Position numbers and translations under genes: made by a program
From: a virus
DNA: 48,015 bases
IMG/VR virus record: IMGVR_UViG_3300019124_000010
Span: 1 to 48,015 of that record
Reading direction: 5' to 3' (one strand)
Notes under the pieces: model-generated
Databases searched by the model: none
The model's input: only the letters and a program-made list of their open reading frames with translations
What the model was told of the DNA's origin: nothing
Shown: one piece after another, positions 8,875 through 47,329 of the stretch
Layout of the letters: each line of letters begins with the position of its first letter
Position numbering within the stretch: position 1 is the stretch's first letter

Positions 8875-9417
8875 GTGCCCACTCTTTTGATAGAGGCTTG
8901 TGCCGATCTAGTGCACAATCCATTTAAGCCATTTGGAGCTGAGAAAAGATCTGGCAATGGAGTTGGTACTTATCATTTCTATGTGGATGATTACAGATTT
9001 CAAACGATATGGGATAATCCTAATCAGATAATCAATAGTGATGCTCAGGCTATAGTAGAGCCTAATCTGAGTTTATTTGATACTACTCCTGTGAGCTATG
9101 GATTACACCTGATCTACAAAAAGAGATGGCTGGCAAGATACATGCAAACCTATGGTATCAAAATCTTTGTGGATCTGAATGTATCTAAGAAATTCTATGA
9201 GTATAATCAGCTAGGAGTACCTGAGGGCTGGAACGCTTTTGCAACTAGAGGCTATGCTGATAGGCCTACATACATGAAAGAGGAGCTGGAGATTGCCAAA
9301 AAGATCTCAGGTAAGGATAATCCACTGATGATCATCTATGGAGGCGGCAAGGTAGCCAGAGAGTTTGCAGCAAAGCACAACCTCATTTATATTGAGCAGA
9401 TCTCAGCTGGAAAATAA
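8875..9417 (+). CDS. DUF4417 protein (start uncertain, may extend to 8812)
   Basis: 180 residues from the GTG at 8875. The sequence fits DUF4417: YHFYVDDYRFQTIWDNP, then a SNYGLHL-like segment (TPVSYGLHLIYKKRWLARYM), and WNAFATRGYADRP leading to an IYGGGKVA motif. Oddity: the frame is open upstream without any ATG/GTG/TTG to the ParB TAA at 8809-8811, and those 21 codons read QLNQINKWTPDCLFPSNNLY, which looks like the conserved beginning of the family. The true product may therefore start at a rare ATC/ATT codon or by readthrough of the ParB stop. Function unknown; the gene sits between replication and packaging modules. Confidence 0.65.
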   Translation: MPTLLIEACADLVHNPFKPFGAEKRSGNGVGTYHFYVDDYRFQTIWDNPNQIINSDAQAIVEPNLSLFDTTPVSYGLHLIYKKRWLARYMQTYGIKIFVDLNVSKKFYEYNQLGVPEGWNAFATRGYADRPTYMKEELEIAKKISGKDNPLMIIYGGGKVAREFAAKHNLIYIEQISAGK

Positions 9418-9454
9418 GTTTGCTTATCCAATTATTTATTTACTTATAGATTGC
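9413..9454 (+). promoter_or_regulatory. Promoter with upstream palindrome
   Basis: AATAAGTTTGCTTAT at 9413-9427 (a copy of the recurrent element) is followed by TTTACTTATA and the -7-like TAGATTGC (9447-9454). The gene starts at 9472, giving a leader of about 12 nt. It drives the packaging module. Confidence 0.6.
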
Positions 9455-9471
9455 CTCTCAAAAAAGAAGAT

Positions 9472-10206
9472 ATGGCAAAAACATCAGGAGGAGTGAGGGT
9501 GCAAGCTGGCACTATTAATCTCACTGGAGGAGGAGGTAAAGATATTGTGAGAGGCGGTGGAGCTCCCATGAATGTAACTCCACTGGATAGTATTCCAGAT
9601 AAGCGGGTATTAAATCAGCAAAGAGCAGTGATCTCAAAGATGTTCAAAAAGTATGGCTTTGAGGCAAACACTGTGGCTATGGCTGATCTGGATGGAGCTC
9701 ATGGAGTGGCTTATATTGGCACTAAGCAAGTTTATTTGAACAAGAATGGCTTTAAGGATGCCAAAAAGCTAATAGCAAGCAAAAAGAGAGAGTATGAGAG
9801 CGGTTTTAAAACGATTACAAAAAATCCTCTCCAGCATACTCTAGTACATGAACTGGCTCACATCAAATGGACTACTGAAATGGGAGGCATCTCAAAGGAG
9901 AGTGAGAGTAAGGTGCAATCTCTTTTCAAACAGGCAAAGCAAGAGGCAAAGATGCTCAATAAGAAATATGGGCAAGGTGCAAAAAAGAAATGGAGTTTAG
10001 GATCTTATGCTCTTACAAATGTAAATGAGTTTTGGGCTGAGGCATCTACTCAGTATCACATTGGAAGGAGGCAGAGTAAATACTCTAAAGAGATCGGAAA
10101 GATTTGGGAGAAAGAGTTTAAAAAGAAAGCTGGCAAGGCTACTCCTACAGCTGGAGGCAGAGGTAGAAGGCAAGCCTCTCTCTTTGACAAGAGAAGGAAA
10201 AAATAA
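9472..10206 (+). CDS. Zinc metallopeptidase (HExxH) of the packaging region
   Basis: 244 residues. The catalytic helix is HTLVHELAHIKW (HExxH at 126-130), and NVNEFWAEA (184-191) offers the glutamate third ligand in a gluzincin-like arrangement. The N-terminus is Gly-rich and disordered (about 1-32); the C-terminus is Lys/Arg-rich (KKKAGKATP..., RRQASLFDKRRKK). Such minimal peptidases occur beside terminase and portal genes, where they may process head proteins, though ADP-ribosylation-toxin and DNA-repair settings are also known. The ATG at 9472 is chosen because the longer frame starting with TTG at 9451 begins inside the promoter -7 box. Confidence 0.75.
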   Translation: MAKTSGGVRVQAGTINLTGGGGKDIVRGGGAPMNVTPLDSIPDKRVLNQQRAVISKMFKKYGFEANTVAMADLDGAHGVAYIGTKQVYLNKNGFKDAKKLIASKKREYESGFKTITKNPLQHTLVHELAHIKWTTEMGGISKESESKVQSLFKQAKQEAKMLNKKYGQGAKKKWSLGSYALTNVNEFWAEASTQYHIGRRQSKYSKEIGKIWEKEFKKKAGKATPTAGGRGRRQASLFDKRRKK

Positions 10207-10304: not shown

Positions 10305-10724
10305 ATGAGCATAGAAAGAAAGAAAATATCTGTCATTGACAGGCTGATCAAAACTGGAGTAGAGAAACCTCTCACTCAGGATGAGATTAGTGCTATTGAG
10401 CAGGAGCTTTTTGGTGAGGATTGGAAAGAGCATGAGCGGCTAAAGGCTGAGGGCAAGCTGGATGAGCTGGAGCTGGATTTTGAGGAGGAGGAGGAGTTTG
10501 ATCTCACCTTTGATGAGAATGATATTGAGGAGGATGATCCTGATACAGAGGAGGCACTAGCTCAGGCCATGTATGGAGATGAGGATTTGGATGATCTGGA
10601 TGATCTGGATGATCTGGATGATGATGAGTTAAATACTCTGGAGGCTGAGGATGATGATTTTATATTTCCTGATGATCTGGATAATATAGAGCCTGAGGAT
10701 GATGGGCATCCGATGTTATTCTAA
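10305..10724 (+). CDS. Highly acidic protein with DLDD repeats
   Basis: 139 residues. The first 35 are an ordinary mixed helix (KKISVIDRLIKTGVEKPLTQ). The rest is dominated by Asp/Glu: ELDFEEEEEFDLTFDEND, then four tandem DLD units encoded by GATCTGGAT repeats (about 10586-10622), and FIFPDDLDNIEPEDDGHPML. Such charge is seen in DNA-mimic inhibitors of restriction and in head scaffolding or terminase-associated proteins. Position directly ahead of the terminase genes favours a packaging role; DNA mimicry is an alternative. It ends the unit at a strong terminator. The start at 10305 is preferred over the ATG-less upstream extension. Confidence 0.65.
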   Translation: MSIERKKISVIDRLIKTGVEKPLTQDEISAIEQELFGEDWKEHERLKAEGKLDELELDFEEEEEFDLTFDENDIEEDDPDTEEALAQAMYGDEDLDDLDDLDDLDDDELNTLEAEDDDFIFPDDLDNIEPEDDGHPMLF

Positions 10725-13209: not shown

Positions 13210-13563
13210 ATGGCAAATCACAAAAATCAAATCACAGTAGGGCAAAAAGTGTTAAGGCTGGATTATGGCTTTCGCTATAATGCTGAGCCTATAGTTACAG
13301 AAGAAACAGTATCAAAGGTAGGTAGGGTTTATTTCCAGCTAAAAAGGTGGCCTAGACAAAAATATTCCATTGATACACTGATGGTAATTTCTGAGTATAG
13401 CTCTAATGCAAGGATAGTGCTATCCAGAGAGGAGTATGAGCTAGAGAGGGAAACAAATCAGCTCACAGGAAAGCTCAGAGGATTTTTTAGCAATCGGTTT
13501 GTTTTATCACTGGATCAAATGAGAAGGATCAGCCAGATAATAGATGAGGAGGCAAAGCTATGA
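13210..13563 (+). CDS. Hypothetical protein
   Basis: 117 residues with a beta-rich first half (VGQKVLRLDYGFRYNAEPIV, VSKVGRVYFQLKRWPRQKYS) resembling a small SH3-like barrel, and a helical end (YELERETNQLTGKLRGFF). The 3' end overlaps the next start (ATGA). Not recognised. Confidence 0.6.
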   Translation: MANHKNQITVGQKVLRLDYGFRYNAEPIVTEETVSKVGRVYFQLKRWPRQKYSIDTLMVISEYSSNARIVLSREEYELERETNQLTGKLRGFFSNRFVLSLDQMRRISQIIDEEAKL

Positions 13564-14003: not shown

Positions 14004-14012
14004 AAATAAAAA

Positions 14013-14042
14013 AGCCAGCTTATTGCTGGCTCTCTTTTTTTT
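14013..14042. terminator. Bidirectional terminator between convergent genes
   Basis: AGCCAGC (14013-14019), loop TTATT, GCTGGCT (14025-14031), then CTCTTTTTTTT on the plus strand and an A-rich flank that gives a U-tract on the minus strand. Confidence 0.8.
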
Positions 14043-14298
14043 AATACTTAGCTTTCTGCTTTAGATGCTCTGATGTTACTATGAGCTGAGCTTTCTCATT
14101 TTTTAGTAGCTCCTTTGGATATTCGGTGAGGAGCTGATCAAAGATCTCAAATCTCCTCTCCTGTATGATATTAGAGCTTAAAGATCCATCTACTCTATAG
14201 CCATACCTAGTGATCATAAACATGCTAGAGGGCTCTTTCCTAGAGCTGATAAATTTTACTCCAGTTTCCTCTCTTTTTACGGTTTTGATGAGCTTCAT
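14041..14298 (-). CDS. Hypothetical leftward protein under operator control
   Basis: 85 residues from the ATG at 14298, which follows the usual AATCACAATCAC leader. It contains TGVKFISSRKEPSSMFMITR, YGYRVDG and a helix FEIFDQLLTEYPKELLKNEK; no family was recognised. It is a lone minus-strand gene within the packaging module and has a very clear promoter: TTTG (14349-14346), 18 nt, TATATTTG (14327-14320), with a 19-bp operator over the -33 box. Its regulation suggests an early or lysogenic role rather than a structural one. Confidence 0.65.
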   Translation of the reverse strand: MKLIKTVKREETGVKFISSRKEPSSMFMITRYGYRVDGSLSSNIIQERRFEIFDQLLTEYPKELLKNEKAQLIVTSEHLKQKAKY

Positions 14299-14319
14299 GT
14301 GATTGTGATTTTGATAGAG

Positions 14320-14361
14320 CAAATATAAAAGCTCTTTTTGAATTACAAAGCAGTTTTGTAA
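14320..14361 (-). promoter_or_regulatory. Leftward promoter with 19-bp operator
   Basis: The operator TTACAAAGCAGTTTTGTAA (14343-14361) embeds the -33 TTTG of the minus strand. The -7 TATATTTG lies at 14327-14320 with exactly 18 nt between, a consensus Bacteroidota promoter. Confidence 0.78.
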
Positions 14362-14371
14362 AATAATCCAA

Positions 14372-14400
14372 AAAAAGAGCCCGCTGTGGAAACAGTGGGC
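14372..14400 (-). terminator. Orphan leftward terminator hairpin
   Basis: On the minus strand GCCCACTGT, loop TTCC, ACAGCGGGC (14400-14379; one G-U pair) is followed by a run of seven T (14376 leftward). No leftward gene lies immediately upstream, so it may end a short antisense RNA from the portal leader or insulate the promoter to its left. Confidence 0.6.
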
Positions 14401-14466
14401 TGATAACCATATCCATGTTAGACCATTCTGAGCGGCAATATAATAAGATTATTGATAACAAAATCA

Positions 14467-14483
14467 TTTTACTTATACATTTG
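14467..14483 (+). promoter_or_regulatory. Portal promoter
   Basis: TTTTACTTATACATTTG contains TACATTTG (14476-14483), an exact TAnnTTTG -7 box extended by the TTACT of the recurrent element. The portal ATG is at 14503, leaving a leader of about 13 nt. Confidence 0.65.
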
Positions 14484-14502
14484 GCTCAAAGCATTTATTT
14501 CT

Positions 14503-16346: not shown

Positions 16347-17270
16347 ATGGGCAAACCAAATCCAAAAAGAATAAAACAAATGGCAGATGAGAGAGCTGAA
16401 AAGATAGAGGCTCTCTTAAATGCTTTTGAGGCTTTAATAGATCGCAATGCTGGCATTTTATCTGAAAGCCTGATAAAAGGCTTTGTAGATCAGCTGGAGG
16501 GCAAGGATGGCTTTATTTTAAGCCATGAACAAAACCTCAGAAAGCTGGAGCTACTGGATCAGGCTTATTCTCTCTTTTCTGAAAAGGAGGGCATGAGGAT
16601 CGCCACTGCTCTGATGGATGATATGGAGGCAATCATGCTCCTAAATGATCAGTATTTTACTGAGCTGATGGGAGGCAAAAAGGTTAAGAGTGATGATATT
16701 AAGAGAGTGATCAGAATGAGATTAGGCATTGATGAAACTGGAGAGCTGATCAGAGATGGTTATATGATGGGATTATTGCAAGATCCTACAGTAAGAGAGC
16801 AGATAAGATCCTTTGCTTTCCAGAGAGTGAGTGCTGGCATAGGCTTTCAGGATTTCAGGAAAGGCTTAAGAGATCTGATTGCTGGCAATGATGAAACTAT
16901 GGGAGCTTTTAAGCGGTTCTATAGAAACTATGCTTTTGATACTTATGCTCAAGTAGATGCCACAAATGGAGCTCTTTATGCACAAAAGCTAAAGCTCAAA
17001 TACTTCATCTACAATGGAGGTATCATGAAGGATAAGAAAGGCAAAGTGAGATCCAGAAAATTTTGTGTAGAGAGAGCTGGCAAAGTATTTAGCACTGAGG
17101 AGGCTGAGAAATGGAAAAATGATAAAGATCTCACAGCTGTAGATAGTAAAAGCACTTATGTTTGGCAGATCCAGAGAGGAGGGCATGGCTGTAGGCACTC
17201 AATAGATTGGATCAGTGAGGAGCTGGCTTTTCAGCTACGGCCTGAGCTAGATCCAGAAAATAAAGAATAA
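16347..17270 (+). CDS. MuF-like minor head / head morphogenesis protein
   Basis: 307 residues. The helical N-domain (about 1-200) ends in FKRFYRNYAFDTYAQVDATN, characteristic of MuF proteins. The C-terminal part has the signature SRKFCVERAGKVFSTEEAEK and then GGHGCRHSIDWISEE (about 279-293), with conserved Cys and His. MuF-like proteins attach to the portal inside the head. The gene lies 11 bp after the portal gene. No toxin domain is fused to its end, which is otherwise common in this family. Confidence 0.82.
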   Translation: MGKPNPKRIKQMADERAEKIEALLNAFEALIDRNAGILSESLIKGFVDQLEGKDGFILSHEQNLRKLELLDQAYSLFSEKEGMRIATALMDDMEAIMLLNDQYFTELMGGKKVKSDDIKRVIRMRLGIDETGELIRDGYMMGLLQDPTVREQIRSFAFQRVSAGIGFQDFRKGLRDLIAGNDETMGAFKRFYRNYAFDTYAQVDATNGALYAQKLKLKYFIYNGGIMKDKKGKVRSRKFCVERAGKVFSTEEAEKWKNDKDLTAVDSKSTYVWQIQRGGHGCRHSIDWISEELAFQLRPELDPENKE

Positions 17271-17297
17271 GTATTTTTATGAGCAGATAATAATTTT

Positions 17298-17305
17298 TAT
17301 ATTTG
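17298..17305 (+). promoter_or_regulatory. Promoter of the candidate ncRNA
   Basis: TATATTTG is an exact TAnnTTTG -7 box after a T-rich -33 region. The expected start is about 17311, just where the paired region begins, and no ORF of useful length follows. Confidence 0.6.
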
Positions 17306-17310
17306 CTCCA

Positions 17311-17580
17311 GTAACATTAAAAACCCTTGAAAAGGAGGGGTTTCAGAAATGATGAAAGCAGATAGGGCTTGGAGTAGCTAACTAAGCTCTGGCTGTGTAA
17401 GGGGCAAAACCCTATCCCTCCGCTTAATATGCTTTTAGCTGATCAGGATTAGCTCTGAAAGGCAAAAGATAGCACTCAGGCGAAGCTGAGAATTATAATT
17501 TGTTTGCAATCGCTACGATTATGCTGTGCAGATGCTACGATTAAAAAAATTAAAGCCTCCAACTAAGGAGGCTTTTAGTT
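17311..17580 (+). ncRNA. Candidate structured non-coding RNA (about 265 nt)
   Basis: This gene-free segment has many complementary pairs. AAACCC (17321-17326) pairs with GGGTTT (17338-17343). AAAGCA+GATAGGG (17355-17367) pairs with CCCTATC (17410-17416) and TGCTTT (17430-17435), a 13-bp helix with a 13-nt one-sided bulge. The bulge contains CCCTCC (17416-17421, sharing one base), which is complementary to GGAGGG (17334-17339), a possible pseudoknot. AGCTGAT/ATTAGCT (17437-17454) has a CAGG loop, and CTCAG/CTGAG closes 17476-17491. The sequence GCTACGATTA occurs twice (17512, 17534). A consensus -7 box precedes it and an intrinsic terminator ends it. CpG, rare in coding DNA here, is frequent. 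It does not match tmRNA, RNase P, a group I or II intron, or a riboswitch that I know. Confidence 0.6.
17553..17580. terminator. Bidirectional terminator, ncRNA / DUF4468 gene
   Basis: AAAGCCTCC, loop AACTA, (A)GGAGGCTTTT on the plus strand; on the minus strand the same stem is followed by TTTAATTTTTTT. It ends both the rightward RNA and the leftward gene at 17598. Confidence 0.8.
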
Positions 17581-17597
17581 TAATGCACCACTCTCAC

Positions 17598-18116
17598 TCA
17601 CCACTTAATATCTTCTATCTTCTTTTTAATGCCAGATTGAAAAGCAAACATGATAGATCTCACTCCTTCATCAAAGTTTTGCAGCTTCTCCTGCTGCCAC
17701 TTCTGATCAGCCTTAGATTTGAACTTAAACTCTATACTCACTGGCTGAGGAGTTTCTCTAGGGCTATCCTTATCATACTCAGTAAAGTTGTATAGTTGCA
17801 CTCTGTATTTTCCATCTTTGAAAGCGATGGAGTAATTAAATAGCACTCTGTTTGTGTATCTGGAGAAAGATATTTTGTAATCGTACAAAAAAGCTCCCTT
17901 TCCCTCTATCAGTCCAGCTGCCTCATCCTGATTTGTGATGGAGCTGCCAGAGATCAGATCATTGATCAGGCTTTTTGTAGCACTCATCAGCTCCCCCTTA
18001 GTACCTGAGGCACTATCAATGAGCTCATAGTGTATAGATCCATTTTTCAGAGGTATATCCTGAGCATACAGGCTTAGAGTAGCAAAAGTAATCAGGCTTA
18101 GTAGTAATCTTTTCAT
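17598..18116 (-). CDS. Secreted DUF4468-like protein (probable lysogenic-conversion gene)
   Basis: 172 residues. It has a classical signal peptide MKRLLLSLITFATLSLYAQD (cleavage probably after YAQ). The mature part, LKNGSIHYELIDSA, GAFLYDYKISFSRYTNRVL, FNYSIAFKDGKYRVQLYNFT and PVSIEFKFKSKADQKW, follows the DUF4468 'TBP-like fold' family of exported Bacteroidota proteins. It is a host-type secreted protein with no evident role in virion assembly, read against the structural genes and bounded by terminators, i.e. a moron. Three TGCAAA half-sites lie just upstream (18129-18155). The start at 18116 is set by the signal peptide; the longer frame has no merit. Confidence 0.78.
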   Translation of the reverse strand: MKRLLLSLITFATLSLYAQDIPLKNGSIHYELIDSASGTKGELMSATKSLINDLISGSSITNQDEAAGLIEGKGAFLYDYKISFSRYTNRVLFNYSIAFKDGKYRVQLYNFTEYDKDSPRETPQPVSIEFKFKSKADQKWQQEKLQNFDEGVRSIMFAFQSGIKKKIEDIKW

Positions 18117-18124
18117 GGAGACAA

Positions 18125-18156
18125 ATTTTGCAAAGGTTATGCAAAGATTTTGCAAA
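18125..18156 (-). promoter_or_regulatory. TGCAAA repeats upstream of the DUF4468 gene
   Basis: TTTTGCAAAG, ATGCAAAG and TTTTGCAAA place three TGCAAA half-sites about 11 bp apart immediately upstream of the leftward start at 18116. The half-site equals that of the repressor operators at 46613-46651, and TTTGC also suits a -33 or -7 box. Confidence 0.45.
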
Positions 18157-18159
18157 AAA

Positions 18160-18181
18160 AAGCCTCCCTAGAAAAGGAGGC
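18160..18181 (-). terminator. Terminator of the leftward small-gene operon
   Basis: On the minus strand GGCCTCC, loop TTTTCTAG, GGAGGC is followed by TTTTTTTT, ending the unit 18211-19278. Confidence 0.75.
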
Positions 18182-18210
18182 CGCTTTTATAAACCGAACC
18201 TATGAAAAAA

Positions 18211-18534
18211 CTAGTTTAAATCAGGATTTTGCTCTTTCATTTTTGATAAGAGATCCAGAGCGAGCTTGCCTATTGGATCATTCGCCTCAAATTCATCTTT
18301 CTGATTATTGTAATGATCCATTAAATCATCCAGAGCCTCCTGAGGAGTGGCAAACACTACGCACTCACAGAGCTGCCCCATAGATTGAGATGATTTCGCA
18401 AAAACAAGGTAAGCAAACCTGTGCCCATCCTCATCCTCTCCTTTAGGTTGTACCTCCAGCACTGGAGCTGATTGTAGCTTATCATCCAGAATAAAAAATA
18501 CCTTATCTCCTTCCTTAAATTTGGGTTGATACAT
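18211..18534 (-). CDS. Hypothetical protein, leftward operon
   Basis: 107 residues. It begins with MYQPKFKEGDKVFFILDDKL and APVLEVQPKGEDEDGHRFAY, a KOW/SH3-like beta start, followed by an acidic helical end (QEALDDLMDHYNNQKDEFEA). Last gene of the leftward unit; its start overlaps the end of the upstream gene by 20 bp. Function unknown. Confidence 0.6.
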   Translation of the reverse strand: MYQPKFKEGDKVFFILDDKLQSAPVLEVQPKGEDEDGHRFAYLVFAKSSQSMGQLCECVVFATPQEALDDLMDHYNNQKDEFEANDPIGKLALDLLSKMKEQNPDLN

Positions 18535-18997
18535 GAATAGATTTTTTTACAGTTAATGATTTGATTTCTTTTTGCTTTAGTAGCTGCTCCAGCCTCAGAT
18601 CCATCATCAAAGTATCATGAGTAAATGGAGCATACATTCTGCTTTTCTTGCTGATGGCTACCTTCTGCTCTCTGTATGGCAGTTTATCAGTAAAAATGAT
18701 CACTGGATCACAATTTTTTTTTACCATAAAAGAGAGCCTCTGGAAAATAGTGCTCAGGATCATTGCCTGAGGATTAGAGAGATCTCTAGGCTGGCTGGCA
18801 TCCAGTAAATTCCAGCCTCCATACTCAGATCTGTAATAAATCAGGAGGCCACTGGAGGAAAGTTTCAGCCTGTCAATAGTAATAGCATTGATGTGAGGTG
18901 CTGGCTTGAATGATATGGGATCACTAAGCCTTAGTATGCCTCCATTGCCCACCTCTGTTTGCAGCATCTCTCTGATCAACTGATAATATTTGCTCAT
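18515..18997 (-). CDS. Hypothetical protein, leftward operon
   Basis: 160 residues of mixed alpha/beta character: KYYQLIREMLQTEVGNGGIL, INAITIDRLKLSSSGLLIYY, and a basic tail LTVKKSIHVSTQI. No motif recognised. Its start overlaps the stop of the gene at 18994 (ATGA on the minus strand), so it is coupled. Confidence 0.6.
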   Translation of the reverse strand: MSKYYQLIREMLQTEVGNGGILRLSDPISFKPAPHINAITIDRLKLSSSGLLIYYRSEYGGWNLLDASQPRDLSNPQAMILSTIFQRLSFMVKKNCDPVIIFTDKLPYREQKVAISKKSRMYAPFTHDTLMMDLRLEQLLKQKEIKSLTVKKSIHVSTQI

Positions 18998-19278
18998 GCC
19001 AGCTCCTTCTCTTTTAGAGCCTTAGATAATCTTTGTTCAATCACTACTCTCCTTTGTACCTCCACTGACTTCACTCTCTCAGTTTCTAGGCATTTCAATA
19101 GTGTGGCTTTGCTATCCACTATCCTAGCCGCTATTTTGAAAGAGGAAATGATCTTGCCTTTTACTGGAGTAATAATGTGGAAAAAACCTTTGTACTCATG
19201 AGGGAAATCAGCTGGCTCAAGTTCAGCTGAGAAATTGTGTTGCTGGCTGTAGCTGCCAGATAGAATGATTTTTTGCAT
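18994..19278 (-). CDS. Hypothetical protein, first gene of leftward operon
   Basis: 94 residues with MQKIILSGSYSQQHNFSAEL at the start and a basic helical C-terminus (SVEVQRRVVIEQRLSKALKE). Not recognised. It is preceded by the inverted copy of the 16-bp palindrome, with TATATTTG as an exact -7 box (19308-19301), giving a leader of about 15 nt. Confidence 0.6.
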   Translation of the reverse strand: MQKIILSGSYSQQHNFSAELEPADFPHEYKGFFHIITPVKGKIISSFKIAARIVDSKATLLKCLETERVKSVEVQRRVVIEQRLSKALKEKELA

Positions 19279-19300
19279 AGATATGATCAGTTTAATGAAA

Positions 19301-19320
19301 CAAATATAAGTAAACTTATA
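19301..19320 (-). promoter_or_regulatory. Leftward promoter with TATAAGTTTACTTATA palindrome
   Basis: On the minus strand the perfect palindrome (19320-19305) runs directly into TATATTTG (19308-19301), the exact -7 consensus. It drives 19278 to 18211. Confidence 0.7.
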
Positions 19321-19438
19321 TCACATAAACCAAAAAATATTTGTTAGAAATTTTCTGGATCTGGATAAGGGCATCACTGTAGCTGCTTGAGATAATCATC
19401 TCATTTTTGTGCCCGATATTAAAAATGTAAACTCTCAT
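19316..19438 (-). CDS. Small hypothetical protein
   Basis: 40 residues from the ATG at 19438: MRVYIFNIGHKNEMIISSSY, SDALIQIQKISNKYFLVYVI. The alternating hydrophobic pattern suggests a small alpha/beta unit. It lies 19 bp downstream of the gene at 19458; its stop touches the next promoter palindrome. The longer frame to 19519 would overlap that upstream gene and is not preferred. Confidence 0.4.
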   Translation of the reverse strand: MRVYIFNIGHKNEMIISSSYSDALIQIQKISNKYFLVYVI

Positions 19439-19457
19439 AGGGTGTGATTTTAAGGGA

Positions 19458-19697
19458 TTAAAGATTTGCATATAAGTGATCAAAAGCGGCATCATAGGCC
19501 TCACAGGTAGTAAACTCATGATAGTAGAGCATTACTGTCTGGATCTTCTCAATCTTAGGGAGAAAGGTGAGTTTTCTGGCCTCTCTTAGCAGGAAAGCAT
19601 GATGCTTTTCAGTTTCGCTTAACTGAGGCTGTTTAGGGTAACATTTCCTGTAAAGCTCCATTAATTGCTCTGATGTGTAGCTGATTTCAGTGCTCAT
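19458..19697 (-). CDS. Small helical hypothetical protein
   Basis: 79 residues, helical: MSTEISYTSEQLMELYRKCY, AFLLREARKLTFLPKIEKIQ, TVMLYYHEFTTCEAYDAAFD. It has the AATCACAAATCAC-type leader upstream of its start (19697). Function unknown. Confidence 0.55.
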   Translation of the reverse strand: MSTEISYTSEQLMELYRKCYPKQPQLSETEKHHAFLLREARKLTFLPKIEKIQTVMLYYHEFTTCEAYDAAFDHLYANL

Positions 19698-19727
19698 GTG
19701 ATTTGTGATTTATTGGTGATTGAATTG

Positions 19728-19753
19728 GAGCTTAGGCATGAAAACCTAAGCTC
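19728..19753. terminator. Hairpin between leftward genes
   Basis: GAGCTTAGG (19728-19736) and CCTAAGCTC (19745-19753) form a perfect 9-bp stem with an 8-nt loop. The T-rich tail is on the plus-strand side only, so for the leftward genes it may act as a processing or stability element. Confidence 0.5.
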
Positions 19754-19762
19754 TCTTTAGTT

Positions 19763-20188
19763 TTATTCAAAAGCTGCCTCAATATCTATCTGGTGAAGCC
19801 ATGCCCACTCCACTCCCTCATCCTCAATAGCCTCAAAAATGAGCTCTATGCCAGCTCTGATTGCTCCTCTCTTGCTGTAATATGTGCCGCCATTAAATTC
19901 CTCCAGAGCTTCAAAGTACATTTCCTGATGATCCATTGAAGCACTCTCTATCCATCTATCAAAGATCCTTTCCACTAACTGATAAAGCCAGCTGTTTACG
20001 CTGAGCAGAGATGAGAAATCCTCTTTACGGTAAACCTTCACAGCCTTAAATACTTTTTTAGTGTCTGGATTATAAAAAACAAGATCTCCAGCATTTATCC
20101 TCAATCCTGTGAGGGTGCAAACTGATGGAAATTTTGCTTTGATCAGAGGGATATTAACTTTTTGGAGAGATGATAATGTTGTTGCCAT
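19763..20188 (-). CDS. Hypothetical protein under tandem-operator control
   Basis: 141 residues from the ATG at 20188. It contains INAGDLVFYNPDTKKVFKAV, where CTLTGLRINAGDLVFYN looks like a small treble-clef-like or beta hairpin without a full set of Cys. It continues with LLSVNSWLYQLVERIFDRW, the helix EMYFEALEEFN, and an acidic C-terminus. Function unknown. It is the first gene behind a pair of contiguous 19-bp operators, so it belongs to the same regulon as the genes at 42378 and 47388. The leader is ATTATCAAATCACAATCAC. Confidence 0.6.
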   Translation of the reverse strand: MATTLSSLQKVNIPLIKAKFPSVCTLTGLRINAGDLVFYNPDTKKVFKAVKVYRKEDFSSLLSVNSWLYQLVERIFDRWIESASMDHQEMYFEALEEFNGGTYYSKRGAIRAGIELIFEAIEDEGVEWAWLHQIDIEAAFE

Positions 20189-20203
20189 GTGATTGTGATT
20201 TGA

Positions 20204-20251
20204 TAATGCAATATTACAAAGCTGTTTTGTAATTACAAAGCAATTTTGTAA
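20204..20251 (-). promoter_or_regulatory. Leftward promoter with tandem 19-bp operators
   Basis: TTACAAAGCTGTTTTGTAA (20214-20232) and TTACAAAGCAATTTTGTAA (20233-20251) are directly adjacent. Read leftward, the outer operator supplies a -33 TTTG and, 19 nt later, TAATATTG forms the -7 box. Occupancy of either site would block the polymerase. Confidence 0.8.
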
Positions 20252-20297
20252 AAATATTTTTAAAAGCTCCTTTTTATCGTTCAAAATCGTTCAAAAT

Positions 20298-20510: not shown

Positions 20511-20867
20511 ATGGAAATGATTACACTGAAAAGAGGCAATGAAACAAAGCAAGTTTCTCGGCTTCAATGGATAAACATGAAATCAGGTAACACCTTCGGA
20601 TGGGAGGAGTTAATTGAAACTCCAGCTGAACTATTACAAACTCCATCAGCTCCTAGTAAACCACAGGGAGAAAGCGGTGAGGGTGCTGCAAATGTGGAGG
20701 CAGAGCAAAGCTCTACTGAGCAAGAGGTATCAGTAGATGATCAAATTGCCGCTCTGGAGGAGCAGAAAAAAGCTGAGGGCTTAACCGCTCAGCAAAAAGC
20801 AAACCTTACAAAGCAAATCAATGAGCTCAAAAAGAAAAAAGAAAGCAATGATAATCCTCAAAAATAA
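20511..20867 (+). CDS. Hypothetical protein at the start of the capsid operon
   Basis: 118 residues: a beta-like head (MITLKRGNETKQVSRLQWIN), a Ser/Glu/Gln-rich disordered middle and a Lys/Glu coiled-coil end (AALEEQKKAEGLTAQQKANL). Either ATG (20511 or 20517) is possible. It overlaps the next gene by 20 bp. Small disordered proteins ahead of scaffold/capsid genes can be head decoration or completion proteins, but nothing specific was recognised. Confidence 0.6.
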   Translation: MEMITLKRGNETKQVSRLQWINMKSGNTFGWEELIETPAELLQTPSAPSKPQGESGEGAANVEAEQSSTEQEVSVDDQIAALEEQKKAEGLTAQQKANLTKQINELKKKKESNDNPQK

Positions 20868-38733: not shown

Positions 38734-39135
38734 ATGATTGCTTTTGATTTCATCATAGGGCTGCTCAACTTTCTCCATGCTGGCATAGATGCTGAGAGGA
38801 TCGCTAAAAACAAAAGGATCTATCATGGCATCAATGGGCTGATCTACTTAGGGATCTGCTTTGTGTTTGCATTAGTAGTGAGCAGCTCTTTTTTCTGGCT
38901 CATAGCCAGTATTTCTTTCCTCAGGTGGCTGGCATTAAGGCAGCTCACTTTTGATATTCCCCTAAACATTCTCAGAGGGCTGGAGTGGGATTATATCTCT
39001 CCAGAGCCTAAGGCGTGGCTAGATAAGCTGGAGCTGAAAGTATTTAAGGGAGTTTATGGCAGGGCTGAGAAATTCTACCTGAGATCATACATCATTTTAC
39101 TAATCATTGAGCTATTGCTCATCACTTTATTATGA
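38734..39135 (+). CDS. Membrane protein of the lysis cassette
   Basis: 133 residues with hydrophobic segments near 2-14, 33-62 (GLIYLGICFVFALVVSSSFF) and at the very end (SYIILLIIELLLITLL). No family recognised. Its stop overlaps the amidase start (ATGA), so endolysin translation is coupled to it. Confidence 0.6.
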   Translation: MIAFDFIIGLLNFLHAGIDAERIAKNKRIYHGINGLIYLGICFVFALVVSSSFFWLIASISFLRWLALRQLTFDIPLNILRGLEWDYISPEPKAWLDKLELKVFKGVYGRAEKFYLRSYIILLIIELLLITLL

Positions 39136-40177: not shown

Positions 40178-40219
40178 TTACAAAACAGTTTTGTAATCTC
40201 ATAAGTTTGCTTATGTTTG
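40178..40219 (+). promoter_or_regulatory. Promoter with perfect 19-bp operator
   Basis: TTACAAAACAGTTTTGTAA (40178-40196) is a perfect palindrome and embeds the -33 TTTG (40190-40193). Eighteen nt later TATGTTTG (40212-40219) is an exact -7 box. ATAAGTTTGCTTAT (40201-40214) overlaps it, so both palindrome classes meet at one promoter. Confidence 0.82.
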
Positions 40220-42311: not shown

Positions 42312-42354
42312 TTACAAACTTGTTTTGTAATTACAAATCAGTGCTGTAATATTG
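42312..42354 (+). promoter_or_regulatory. Promoter with tandem 19-bp operators
   Basis: TTACAAACTTGTTTTGTAA (42312-42330) and the more divergent TTACAAATCAGTGCTGTAA (42331-42349) are contiguous. TTTG (42324-42327), 19 nt, TAATATTG (42347-42354) forms the promoter, the same geometry as at 47287 and 20251. Confidence 0.8.
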
Positions 42355-43465: not shown

Positions 43466-43745
43466 TTTTGGATTGCACTACTCTTGTATAATTGTCTATG
43501 AGTTGCTGTTTGAAAATAGGATCATTCAGCAACTTTTTTATTTCGCTCTCAGGCAGCTCCAGAGCATCCAGAATGATCCAGAAAAAACTCTCCAGCTCAT
43601 CATACTTATACTCTGGATGCAAGTAGTAACAGGCCGCTGAAAATACAGAAACTAAAGGAGCAGGATCACTCCCACTCCTCCAGTGTATCTCAGGCTGGAT
43701 CTCCACTAAGAAGCTCCAAAATTCTTTTTGTGCTATTACTTTCAC
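43434..43745 (-). CDS. Hypothetical protein downstream of the integrase
   Basis: 103 residues: FWSFLVEIQPEIHWRSGSDP, APLVSVFSAACYYLHPEYKY, DELESFFWIILDALELPESE. Aromatic-rich and helical, not recognised. It lies 12 bp after the integrase stop on the same strand, so it is co-transcribed with integrase and may be a lysogenic-phase gene. Confidence 0.6.
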   Translation of the reverse strand: MKVIAQKEFWSFLVEIQPEIHWRSGSDPAPLVSVFSAACYYLHPEYKYDELESFFWIILDALELPESEIKKLLNDPIFKQQLIDNYTRVVQSKIKIAPDQLSP

Positions 43746-43757
43746 TCTGGCTCAAAT

Positions 43758-44933
43758 CTAAGCAGTTTTTTTCTCAATAGCTCTCTCCATTCTATCCATT
43801 GCATCATCTACAGTTCTATCCATGATCTTTGCATAGGTAGCGGTCTGCTTCAAATTCCTATGGCCTAATATCTTACTTACTACCTCAATAGGGATAGCCA
43901 GCTCCAGAGCGATTGTGGCAAAAGAGTGCCTTGCTGTGTGGAATGTTACATGCTTATTAATCTCGGCTAGTTCAATCAGGATCTTTAGATACTCATTTGC
44001 TTTCTGATTTGAGATCAGCTTCCTATCTCCTATCAGCTGGATCAGCTCTTTCAATCGGCTTGTGAGCTTTATAGATACGATCTCTCCTACTCCTTTCTCT
44101 CCAGTGGCTTTTGATGTAACACATATAAGCCTATCTCCTACAATAAGCTCTCCTGATGGCAATCTCTGGAGATCTTCAAACCTCAGGCCTGAGTAGCATC
44201 CCACTAAAAAATAAAAGCCTATCAGCTGGAGTGATGGATGGAGAGAGGGCTCTTTACATTTCAGGTAAAGCCTTTCTACCTCCTCCATGCTCAGAGGTAT
44301 TTTGAGATTTTCTACATACTTAAACTTAAAAGATTTGAAAGGATAGTGATCAGTGATCTTATCAATATCTCTGGCTCTATTAAAGATCATTCTGATAAAT
44401 TTCAGATTTCCCCATATTGAATTGCCAGACAACTCACACACCGATTGCAGCCATCCCTTATACTCCTCCAGCCACTTATGATTGATCCTAGTGAATGGCA
44501 ATGATCCTCTCTCAAATCGCTCCACTTTCCTCAGCTCTTTTCTGTAAACTCTGATAGTGGCTGGATCTCTTAAACCTTTCTCCTCCATGTGATTGATCAC
44601 TGAGGCGGCATACTTTTTAAAATCATGGCTCTCCTCTGATTTTGTGAGCTGATTGATCAGATCCAGATTAACTGTTTCGCCTACTATTTTTCGCTCCATC
44701 AGTTTTGCCTGTAGATCCATTTTCATTCTCTGGATCGTAGAATTGATCAGAAAGTGATTTGAGATCTTTTTACTTACCCTCTCCTCATCTTCGCTCCAGT
44801 GCTCAGGAATAACCTTAAAGCCTGTGGAAACTTTCTTTTGCTTTCTATCAATGATCATTTGAATGATGATAGGGCACTCTCCCTTTGTGTTTGGTGCATC
44901 TTTTCTCAAGATGGCTTTGATGGATAGTTTCAT
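43758..44933 (-). CDS. int: Tyrosine recombinase integrase
   Basis: 391 residues. An N-terminal arm-binding domain (about 1-90: KGECPIIIQMIIDRKQKKVS), a SAM-like core-binding domain (about 105-195) and a catalytic domain with GCYSGLRFEDL (R251), VTSKATGEKG (K275 or K280), HTARHSF (H332, R335), LGHRN (H358) and the nucleophile Y367 in TATYAKIMD. All catalytic residues are present. The architecture is that of Bacteroidota phage and conjugative-element integrases. It faces away from an attP region with GGGAAACAT arm-type repeats. The leader holds the usual ATCACAAATCAC (reverse strand). Confidence 0.95.
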   Translation of the reverse strand: MKLSIKAILRKDAPNTKGECPIIIQMIIDRKQKKVSTGFKVIPEHWSEDEERVSKKISNHFLINSTIQRMKMDLQAKLMERKIVGETVNLDLINQLTKSEESHDFKKYAASVINHMEEKGLRDPATIRVYRKELRKVERFERGSLPFTRINHKWLEEYKGWLQSVCELSGNSIWGNLKFIRMIFNRARDIDKITDHYPFKSFKFKYVENLKIPLSMEEVERLYLKCKEPSLHPSLQLIGFYFLVGCYSGLRFEDLQRLPSGELIVGDRLICVTSKATGEKGVGEIVSIKLTSRLKELIQLIGDRKLISNQKANEYLKILIELAEINKHVTFHTARHSFATIALELAIPIEVVSKILGHRNLKQTATYAKIMDRTVDDAMDRMERAIEKKTA

Positions 44934-44990
44934 TTTACCTGTGATTTGTGATCAAAAAATATTGGCTCAGTGAGCCTAATTTATAAGAAT

Positions 44991-45224
44991 GGGAAACACA
45001 AAAGCTGGAGTGGGAAACATGGGAAACATTTGGGAAACATTCTCAAACGATTTTGGTAGATATTGGTAGATTTTGGATGCAATTCCAAAGGAGATTTAAC
45101 AAAAAAAGCAGCTCTAAAGCTGCTCTAAGTGATCCCGCTGGGAATTGTGCTAATTTCATCAAACCCTTGTCCAGCTTGCATTTCAGAGCACTCAAAAAAT
45201 GAGTGGGAAACATTTGGGAAACAT
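44991..45224. other. attP region with arm-type repeats and tRNA-like core
   Basis: GGGAAACAT occurs at 45012, 45021, 45032, 45205 and 45216 with a partial copy at 44991, forming two arms around a central segment. In the centre (45128-45146) is AGTGATCCCGCTGGGAATT, which read on the minus strand resembles a tRNA 3' end (CCCAG of the T stem, CGGGATC of the acceptor stem, A). Directly downstream on that strand is an intrinsic terminator. Integration into a tRNA gene, restoring its 3' end and terminator, is the natural reading. Two TTGGTAGAT(A/T)TTGG repeats (45052-45077) lie between the left arm and core. Confidence 0.75.
45099..45126 (-). terminator. Leftward terminator beside the att core
   Basis: On the minus strand AGCAGCT, loop TTAG, AGCTGCT (45124-45107) is followed by seven T. 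It ends the regulator transcripts and probably also serves the reconstituted host tRNA after integration. Confidence 0.8.
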
Positions 45225-45225
45225 C

Positions 45226-45582
45226 TTAGAGATTTTCGGCGATCTTTTGAGCCTCTCCAGAGATCTTTTCTAAGCCTTTTCTGACAGCTGCCAGCTTACT
45301 TTTTAGCTCCTGCTCTATCATATTGCCTTTTCTGGCTTTCAGGAATAGCGGCTCATTTTTGCTATCTGTAAGGAAAGCATAGGGATTAACATTAAAGATC
45401 TGGATCAGGTTCTTAAACACTGATAAACTCATAGTAGTTTCTCCTGCCTCCAGATAAGAGAGGGCGGCTTGAGAAATATCCAAGCTCTCAGCAAATTCTG
45501 ACTGATTAAGCTGGAGCATTTTTCTGATTTCCTTCAATTTTTCTCCATCAGGAGTTGAGGTTTTTTGTGCTTGTTTTGCCAT
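45226..45582 (-). CDS. XRE-family regulator with C-terminal coiled coil
   Basis: 118 residues from the ATG at 45582. The HTH domain occupies about 13-70: GEKLKEIRKMLQLNQSEFAE, SLDISQAALSYLEAGETTMS, then a helix LIQIFNVNPYAFL. A basic linker and a coiled-coil tail (EQELKSKLAAVRKGLEKISG) suggest dimerisation. It sits between attP and the repressor in the lysogeny block, so it may keep lysogeny genes in check or regulate integrase. The frame to 45702 is open but has no good start. It is a candidate reader of the 19-bp operators. Confidence 0.78.
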   Translation of the reverse strand: MAKQAQKTSTPDGEKLKEIRKMLQLNQSEFAESLDISQAALSYLEAGETTMSLSVFKNLIQIFNVNPYAFLTDSKNEPLFLKARKGNMIEQELKSKLAAVRKGLEKISGEAQKIAENL

Positions 45583-47286: not shown

Positions 47287-47329
47287 TTACAAAATTGTTT
47301 TGTAATTACAAAGCTGTTTTGTAATATTG
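47287..47329 (+). promoter_or_regulatory. Promoter with tandem 19-bp operators
   Basis: TTACAAAATTGTTTTGTAA (47287-47305) and TTACAAAGCTGTTTTGTAA (47306-47324) are contiguous. TTTG (47299-47302), 19 nt, TAATATTG (47322-47329) makes the promoter. It starts the recombination-replication transcript. Confidence 0.82.

Follow-up and report, generated by a model that had tools for sequence, protein, structure and literature searches.

A candidate small RNA, possibly transcribed on its own, in an accessory insertion of the head module of a temperate phage

We suggest, as a tentative reading to which we give a little less than an even chance, that the intergenic stretch following the MuF-like head gene of this phage is an accessory gene for a small RNA of ~270 nt that is transcribed on its own; the candidate is represented by a single sequence and would occupy a hot spot for insertions within the head module. 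The window, that is, the whole stretch of DNA analysed, is a 48-kb virus record of 48,015 nt (IMG/VR IMGVR_UViG_3300019124_000010). Because the stretch combines a -7 box, a strand-biased fold, no coding sequence, no downstream gene on the same strand and a terminator, an independent trans-acting RNA is the most economical functional reading; from these features we infer that it may be transcribed, that it may be so independently of the head operon, and that it may act in trans on a target. A sequence-only reading had proposed a structured RNA gene here; an independent RNA from the + strand remains plausible given the box, the strand-biased fold and the terminator, but the 13-bp helix, the pseudoknot and the argument from base composition that went with that proposal were not supported.

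Table 1 Features in and around the candidate RNA region (coordinates in the window)
Feature	Position	Strand	Remarks
MuF-like head gene	16347-17270	+	Label from location after portal; no family match
Weak copy of ATAAGTTTACTTAT	17267-17280	+	3 mismatches; overlaps the MuF-like stop codon
Predicted transcription start	~17311	+	Placed from the -7 box
Predicted independent transcript, ~270 nt	17311-17582	+	From promoter box to terminator
Predicted 5' domain, branched	17334-17421	+	Closing stem GGAGGGGU 17334-17341 / AUCCCUCC 17414-17421; mean pair probabilities 0.90-0.96
Very short frame MMKADRAWSS	17350-17385	+	AGGAGG upstream, but GGAGG paired in the fold; weighed, not favoured
Predicted second hairpin, 14 pairs, 3-nt bulge, CAGG loop	17430-17464	+	p 0.64-0.69
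Predicted third hairpin CTCAG-GCGAAG-CTGAG	17475-17490	+	p 0.84
Pair of imperfect direct repeats (17 nt each), 22 nt apart	17505-17543	+	Both copies contain GCTACGATTA; linker with little structure, 5' of the terminator
DUF4468-like gene	17598-18155	-	Nearest gene 3' of the gap; its end opens the cassette
Accessory cassette	17598-20284	-	DUF4468-like protein with hydrophobic leader and small family-less genes; between MuF-like and capsid genes

Judged by its genes, the window is a temperate phage with Bacteroidota-type features. The integrase (43758-44933) matched the Arm-DNA-bind_5 and Phage_int_SAM_5 domains, and DnaB helicase, Gp157, SSB, tape measure, terminase and portal genes were also recognised; a search with the integrase aimed at the host clade gave no match at E 1e-40. 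Upstream of the integrase, TGGGAAACAT units are repeated at 44987-45235, in two pairs ~180 bp apart, and are possibly arm-type sites of the integrase. We also note that the gene upstream of the portal gene (13210-13563) matches Pfam Phage_ProQ_C_like (E 6e-16) and may or may not bind RNA; tblastn brought up no counterpart of it in the related loci described below. The gap of interest (17271-17597, 327 nt) sits between the MuF-like head gene and a minus-strand cassette (Table 1), and neither the DUF4468-like neighbour nor two further cassette genes found relatives in phage records by tblastn.

The earlier description of this gap as gene-free holds: 17271-17597 contains no convincing ORF, and in the six-frame translation every + strand ORF before 17504 is shorter than 20 aa. 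A decayed ORF was considered and rejected; six read-through frames match nothing in PHROGs or Pfam. Because the next + strand gene, with which the capsid genes begin, starts only at 20511, past both the terminator and an operon that runs the other way, the region 17311-17582 is not the leader of a present + strand gene. A cis-regulatory leader or riboswitch would have a gene on the same strand directly downstream, and the next gene here (17598-18155) is on the minus strand.

The exact -7 box reported earlier was confirmed, with TATATTTG at 17298-17305 followed by C; the resulting TATATTTGC (17298-17306, + strand) fits the Bacteroidota primary-sigma -7 consensus, which for Bacteroides is TANNTTTGY (PMC12632263). 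The -33 element (TTTG or TTG, ~19-21 nt upstream of the box) is poor or absent, with no TTG at such spacing 5' of 17298. Around 17298 the box extends to a 14-mer, TTTTATATTTGCTC, identical to the box that heads a small minus-strand coding gene at 14327.

Portal searches turned up L005, L006, L024 and L025, four related phages that share this head module, as well as a fragment (L002), with portal identities of 34-43%. In the window and in all four phages, the first + strand TAnnTTTG past the MuF-like stop reads TATATTTG, at offsets from that stop of 27 in the window, 8 in L005, 106 in L006, 147 in L024 and 335 in L025; in L005 and L006, where the next genes could be traced, the box marks the head of the capsid genes. 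We therefore infer that the TATATTTG box is probably the ancestral capsid-operon promoter, which in the window would have been parted from the capsid genes by the candidate RNA and the cassette on the minus strand. The RNA region is absent from the related phages examined. In L005 the MuF-like gene is followed by 47 bp and then by a small gene, scaffold and capsid, and L006 has a gap of 183 bp with a terminator-like hairpin of its own and then a promoter-like box. L025 carries an accessory insertion of ~2.3 kb in the MuF-like/scaffold interval that opens with a convergent minus-strand gene, and in the window the box and the capsid genes are 3.2 kb apart, a distance filled by the RNA region together with the minus-strand cassette. 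At 9330-9525 and 10345-10420, the interval in L025 also has a long inverted repeat (GGTATCCTGATGGTATC...) and a sequence that looks like a tRNA by eye.

In the predicted fold, the stem that closes the 5' domain has a mean pair probability of 0.90, and the stems inside the domain are 17358-17361/17393-17396, 17363-17372/17382-17391 (10 bp, p 0.95) and 17400-17403/17410-17413. The hairpin with the CAGG loop that had been described earlier was recovered (17437-17443/17448-17454) and is extended by 17430-17436/17458-17464. The 13-bp helix proposed between 17355-17367 and the segments 17410-17416 and 17430-17435 has an ensemble probability of ~0, and forcing it costs 8.7 kcal/mol (-73.9 vs -82.6). 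The GGAGGG/CCCTCC contact, previously taken for a pseudoknot, forms the six-pair core of the closing stem in the best nested fold (p 0.97); because it is an ordinary nested stem, a pseudoknot is unnecessary, and a pseudoknotted form reaches at best ~-59.7 against -65.2 kcal/mol when the same stretch is folded in nested form, i.e. at least 5.5 worse before any pseudoknot penalty.

By these computed energies, folding strength is moderate and the bias to the + strand is clear. Compared with shuffled sequences, z is ~-3 with the terminator and ~-1.8 for 17311-17545 without it. For the core 17330-17495, the boundaries of which were picked after the fold was seen, z is -2.3 to -3.3 on the + strand and ~-0.2 to -0.5 on the minus strand. 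In a phage-wide scan with a step of 240 nt, the + strand energy of the core (-57.5 kcal/mol) lies below that of all 400 windows sampled, and 6.5% of the 400 have a z equal to or below that of the core. Among the eight largest gaps (each at least 130 nt, both strands), this gap on the + strand has the strongest z, -4.0 with the terminator; two others are also structured on the minus strand, namely 14004-14502 (z -3.4), within which 14041-14298 is coding, and 43466-43757 (z -3.3).

The intrinsic terminator noted earlier is present (GCCTCC-6 nt-GGAGGC, 17555-17572, extended to 17546-17581) and is strong but bidirectional, its arms (17546-17560/17567-17581) being flanked by A and T runs. A simple terminator scan scores the minus strand only, for which the A-rich 17543-17551 supplies the T-run; the T-rich 17573-17580 serves the + strand, and the terminator can therefore act for both convergent units. 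The 3' intrinsic terminator expected of a small-RNA gene is found at 17546-17581, though the convergent operons need the same terminator, and because both neighbouring transcription units converge on it, it is not specific evidence for an RNA gene. A second terminator of the GCCTCC/GGAGGC type lies at 18161-18182, and such a terminator is therefore an ordinary device in the cassette.

The 10-mer said to occur twice near the 3' end is a real repeat, with GCTACGATTA at 17512 and 17534 and no other copy in the window. Repeats of this kind, with a 10-mer recurring inside 40 nt, arose in 32 of 3000 shuffles of the gap (~1%), and ~20 other spots in the window likewise have one. CpG is mildly raised in the RNA stretch (5 in 270 nt vs a mean of 1.9; observed/expected 0.46), but to call it common there was an overstatement, as 4.4% of windows equal it; three of the five CpGs fall in or beside the repeated GCTACGATTA. 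Across the window, CpG has an observed/expected ratio of 0.18, and GT (0.55) and AC (0.63) are also depleted, a dinucleotide bias that is unusual for a bacterial virus.

In agreement with the earlier impression that no Rfam family fits, a scan against Rfam 15 (including GOLLD, ROOL, 6S-flavo and tmRNA) gave 0 matches at the gathering cut-off; matches below the threshold either are centred around the terminator or seem to be chance hits. ARAGORN found 0 tRNA or tmRNA genes in the window. The BLASTN comparison proposed together with the RNA gene brought up no homologue in phage or plasmid collections, and 395 Bacteroidota genomes gave only chance-level matches of 25-41 nt. IMG/VR was searched with two exact patterns of 21-25 nt and six degenerate 24-nt patterns, in which the RNA was read as if coding, and gave no match. 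A single-sequence covariance model, which reaches near relatives only, found no homologue in 395 + 397 Bacteroidota genomes or in five related records. As some of the collections may lack close relatives of the phage, we regard this failed search as weak evidence of absence.

Two operator-like palindromic motifs spread over the intergenic gaps may be more solid than the RNA-gene reading itself. The 14-bp palindrome ATAAGTTTACTTAT occurs at 21 sites with at most two mismatches (including 1454, 2821, 6681, 9414, 12983, 19306, 20463, 33723, 40201, 42770 and 45759), of which 20 are intergenic, with gaps making up 9.6% of the window given the gene starts as chosen here; several are accompanied by another copy at a distance of 19-20 bp and overlap the -7 box (ACTTATAnnTTTG). 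Together, the sites resemble an operator or stoperator set extending over the whole phage. The palindrome TTACAAA-N5-TTTGTAA has exactly seven sites (14343, 20214, 20233, 40178, 42312, 47287 and 47306), two tandem pairs among them with a spacing of 19 bp, and looks like a second operator set: sites lie 5' of the minus-strand accessory genes 14041-14298 and 19763-20188 and of the PAPS-reductase-like gene at 40217, and are intergenic at 42312 and 47287-47324. Neither motif is found in good form in the RNA region. The small minus-strand gene 14041-14298, inside the head module, has a promoter-like box (TTTTATATTTGCTC) with 14 nt identical to the 17298 site, an operator-like palindrome upstream and a terminator, and constitutes a second accessory insertion. 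The stretch around it (14004-14370, minus strand), which is similar to the candidate at both ends, was considered as an RNA paralogue and rejected; what the two have in common are the promoter box and terminator of the protein gene.

The main rival explanation, which accounts for almost as much as a small-RNA gene and to which we assign a substantial if minority probability, is that the stretch is a non-functional spacer. Entry of the cassette would have cut the ancestral capsid promoter from its genes and left a stranded promoter, filler and a convergent bidirectional terminator, any transcript being a by-product. The insertion is evident from synteny, relatives keep the TATATTTG box in a conserved position behind the MuF-like gene, which in both L005 and L006 is the head of the capsid genes, two further gaps have structure as well (14004-14502 and 43466-43757, minus strand), and no homologues were found in the searched collections. 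A mere spacer sits less well with the ~230 nt from box to terminator, far above what L005 needs and of a length at which filler is rarely kept by phage genomes, and with stable folding that is biased to the + strand outside the terminator and a repeated 10-mer. The third explanation, which we consider unlikely, is a 3' UTR of the MuF-like head mRNA, i.e. a structured tail without a promoter of its own that would protect or end the late transcript and might be processed to a 3'UTR-derived RNA. It is favoured by the missing -33 element and by the fact that the region directly follows the MuF-like stop and ends in the terminator of that operon; an exact box that is conserved in position in four relatives and has 14 nt in common with a second promoter-like site speaks against it, as do the short tails in relatives (47 bp in L005).

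Two further explanations appear very improbable to us. The gap RNA could serve as mRNA for the tiny peptide MMKADRAWSS (start codon ATG, 17350 or 17353), possibly a leader peptide, given that ATGATG stands at a usable distance after AAAAGGAGG. Against this, the GGAGG sits within the most stable stem (p 0.97), the frame has only ~10 codons and Shine-Dalgarno sites are little used by Bacteroidota; moreover, because no + strand gene follows, there is nothing to attenuate. Just as little probability attaches to an element acting at the DNA level, in which the paired GCTACGATTA copies would be bound by protein in an operator, attachment or packaging-related role, any folding of the RNA being incidental: the two imperfect 17-nt repeats 22 nt apart and a palindrome, AATCGCTACGATT, inside the first are compatible with this, but the window has no further copy of GCTACGATTA, be it close to the integrase (43758-44933) or to the repressor-like genes, and the phage already has other, repeated operator-like palindromes.

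If the stretch is a small-RNA gene, our working hypothesis is that host RNA polymerase would start at ~17311 from the -7 box, at the position where the capsid operon starts in relatives, and that transcription would end at the bidirectional terminator. The RNA would fold into the branched 5' domain and two hairpins, followed by a weakly structured linker with two copies of GCUACGAUUA just before the terminator. An exposed segment followed by a terminator hairpin is the ordinary layout of trans-acting bacterial sRNAs and, by analogy with these, the most likely mode of action would be to pair with, or titrate, a host RNA or RNA-binding protein. For 71 phage genes, no RNA segment pairs with the start regions beyond the shuffled best by a margin. 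Antisense pairing to the RBS region of the gene at 38734 ranks first for three RNA segments, with p 0.02-0.04 each before correction for 71 genes, and was dismissed as chance. Because no convincing partner was found in the phage mRNAs, any target that exists probably lies in the host. The most far-reaching form of the proposal is doubtful. It posits an undescribed phage RNA family, with a ~270-nt folded RNA that is carried by accessory DNA inserted at the MuF-capsid junction of Bacteroidota phages, is made from what was once the capsid promoter and works in trans, via the repeated GCUACGAUUA, on the host.

If transcribed and functional, the candidate would add an orphan sRNA to the phages of a phylum whose phage RNA regulators are little known, and the MuF-capsid junction would be an entry site for accessory genes, both protein-coding and RNA, into the head module. 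GOLLD and ROOL, large ornate RNAs with described structures (PMC12286853), are noncoding, elaborately paired and phage-associated like the candidate, but they are much longer and form conserved families, and the candidate has no Rfam match. Noncoding RNAs of the same host phylum include 6S-flavo (RF01685) and the further Bacteroidota families listed in PMC2864571; the candidate matches none of them in Rfam scans. It differs from the general class of phage-encoded trans-acting sRNAs in that neither a sequence relative nor a target was found, and its transcript is a predicted one. We conclude that the stretch is an orphan candidate of a known kind, plausible but unproven, and that it has in common with the phage-encoded trans-acting sRNAs a promoter-like box, an intrinsic terminator, a length of 100-300 nt, an accessory location and the absence of an ORF.
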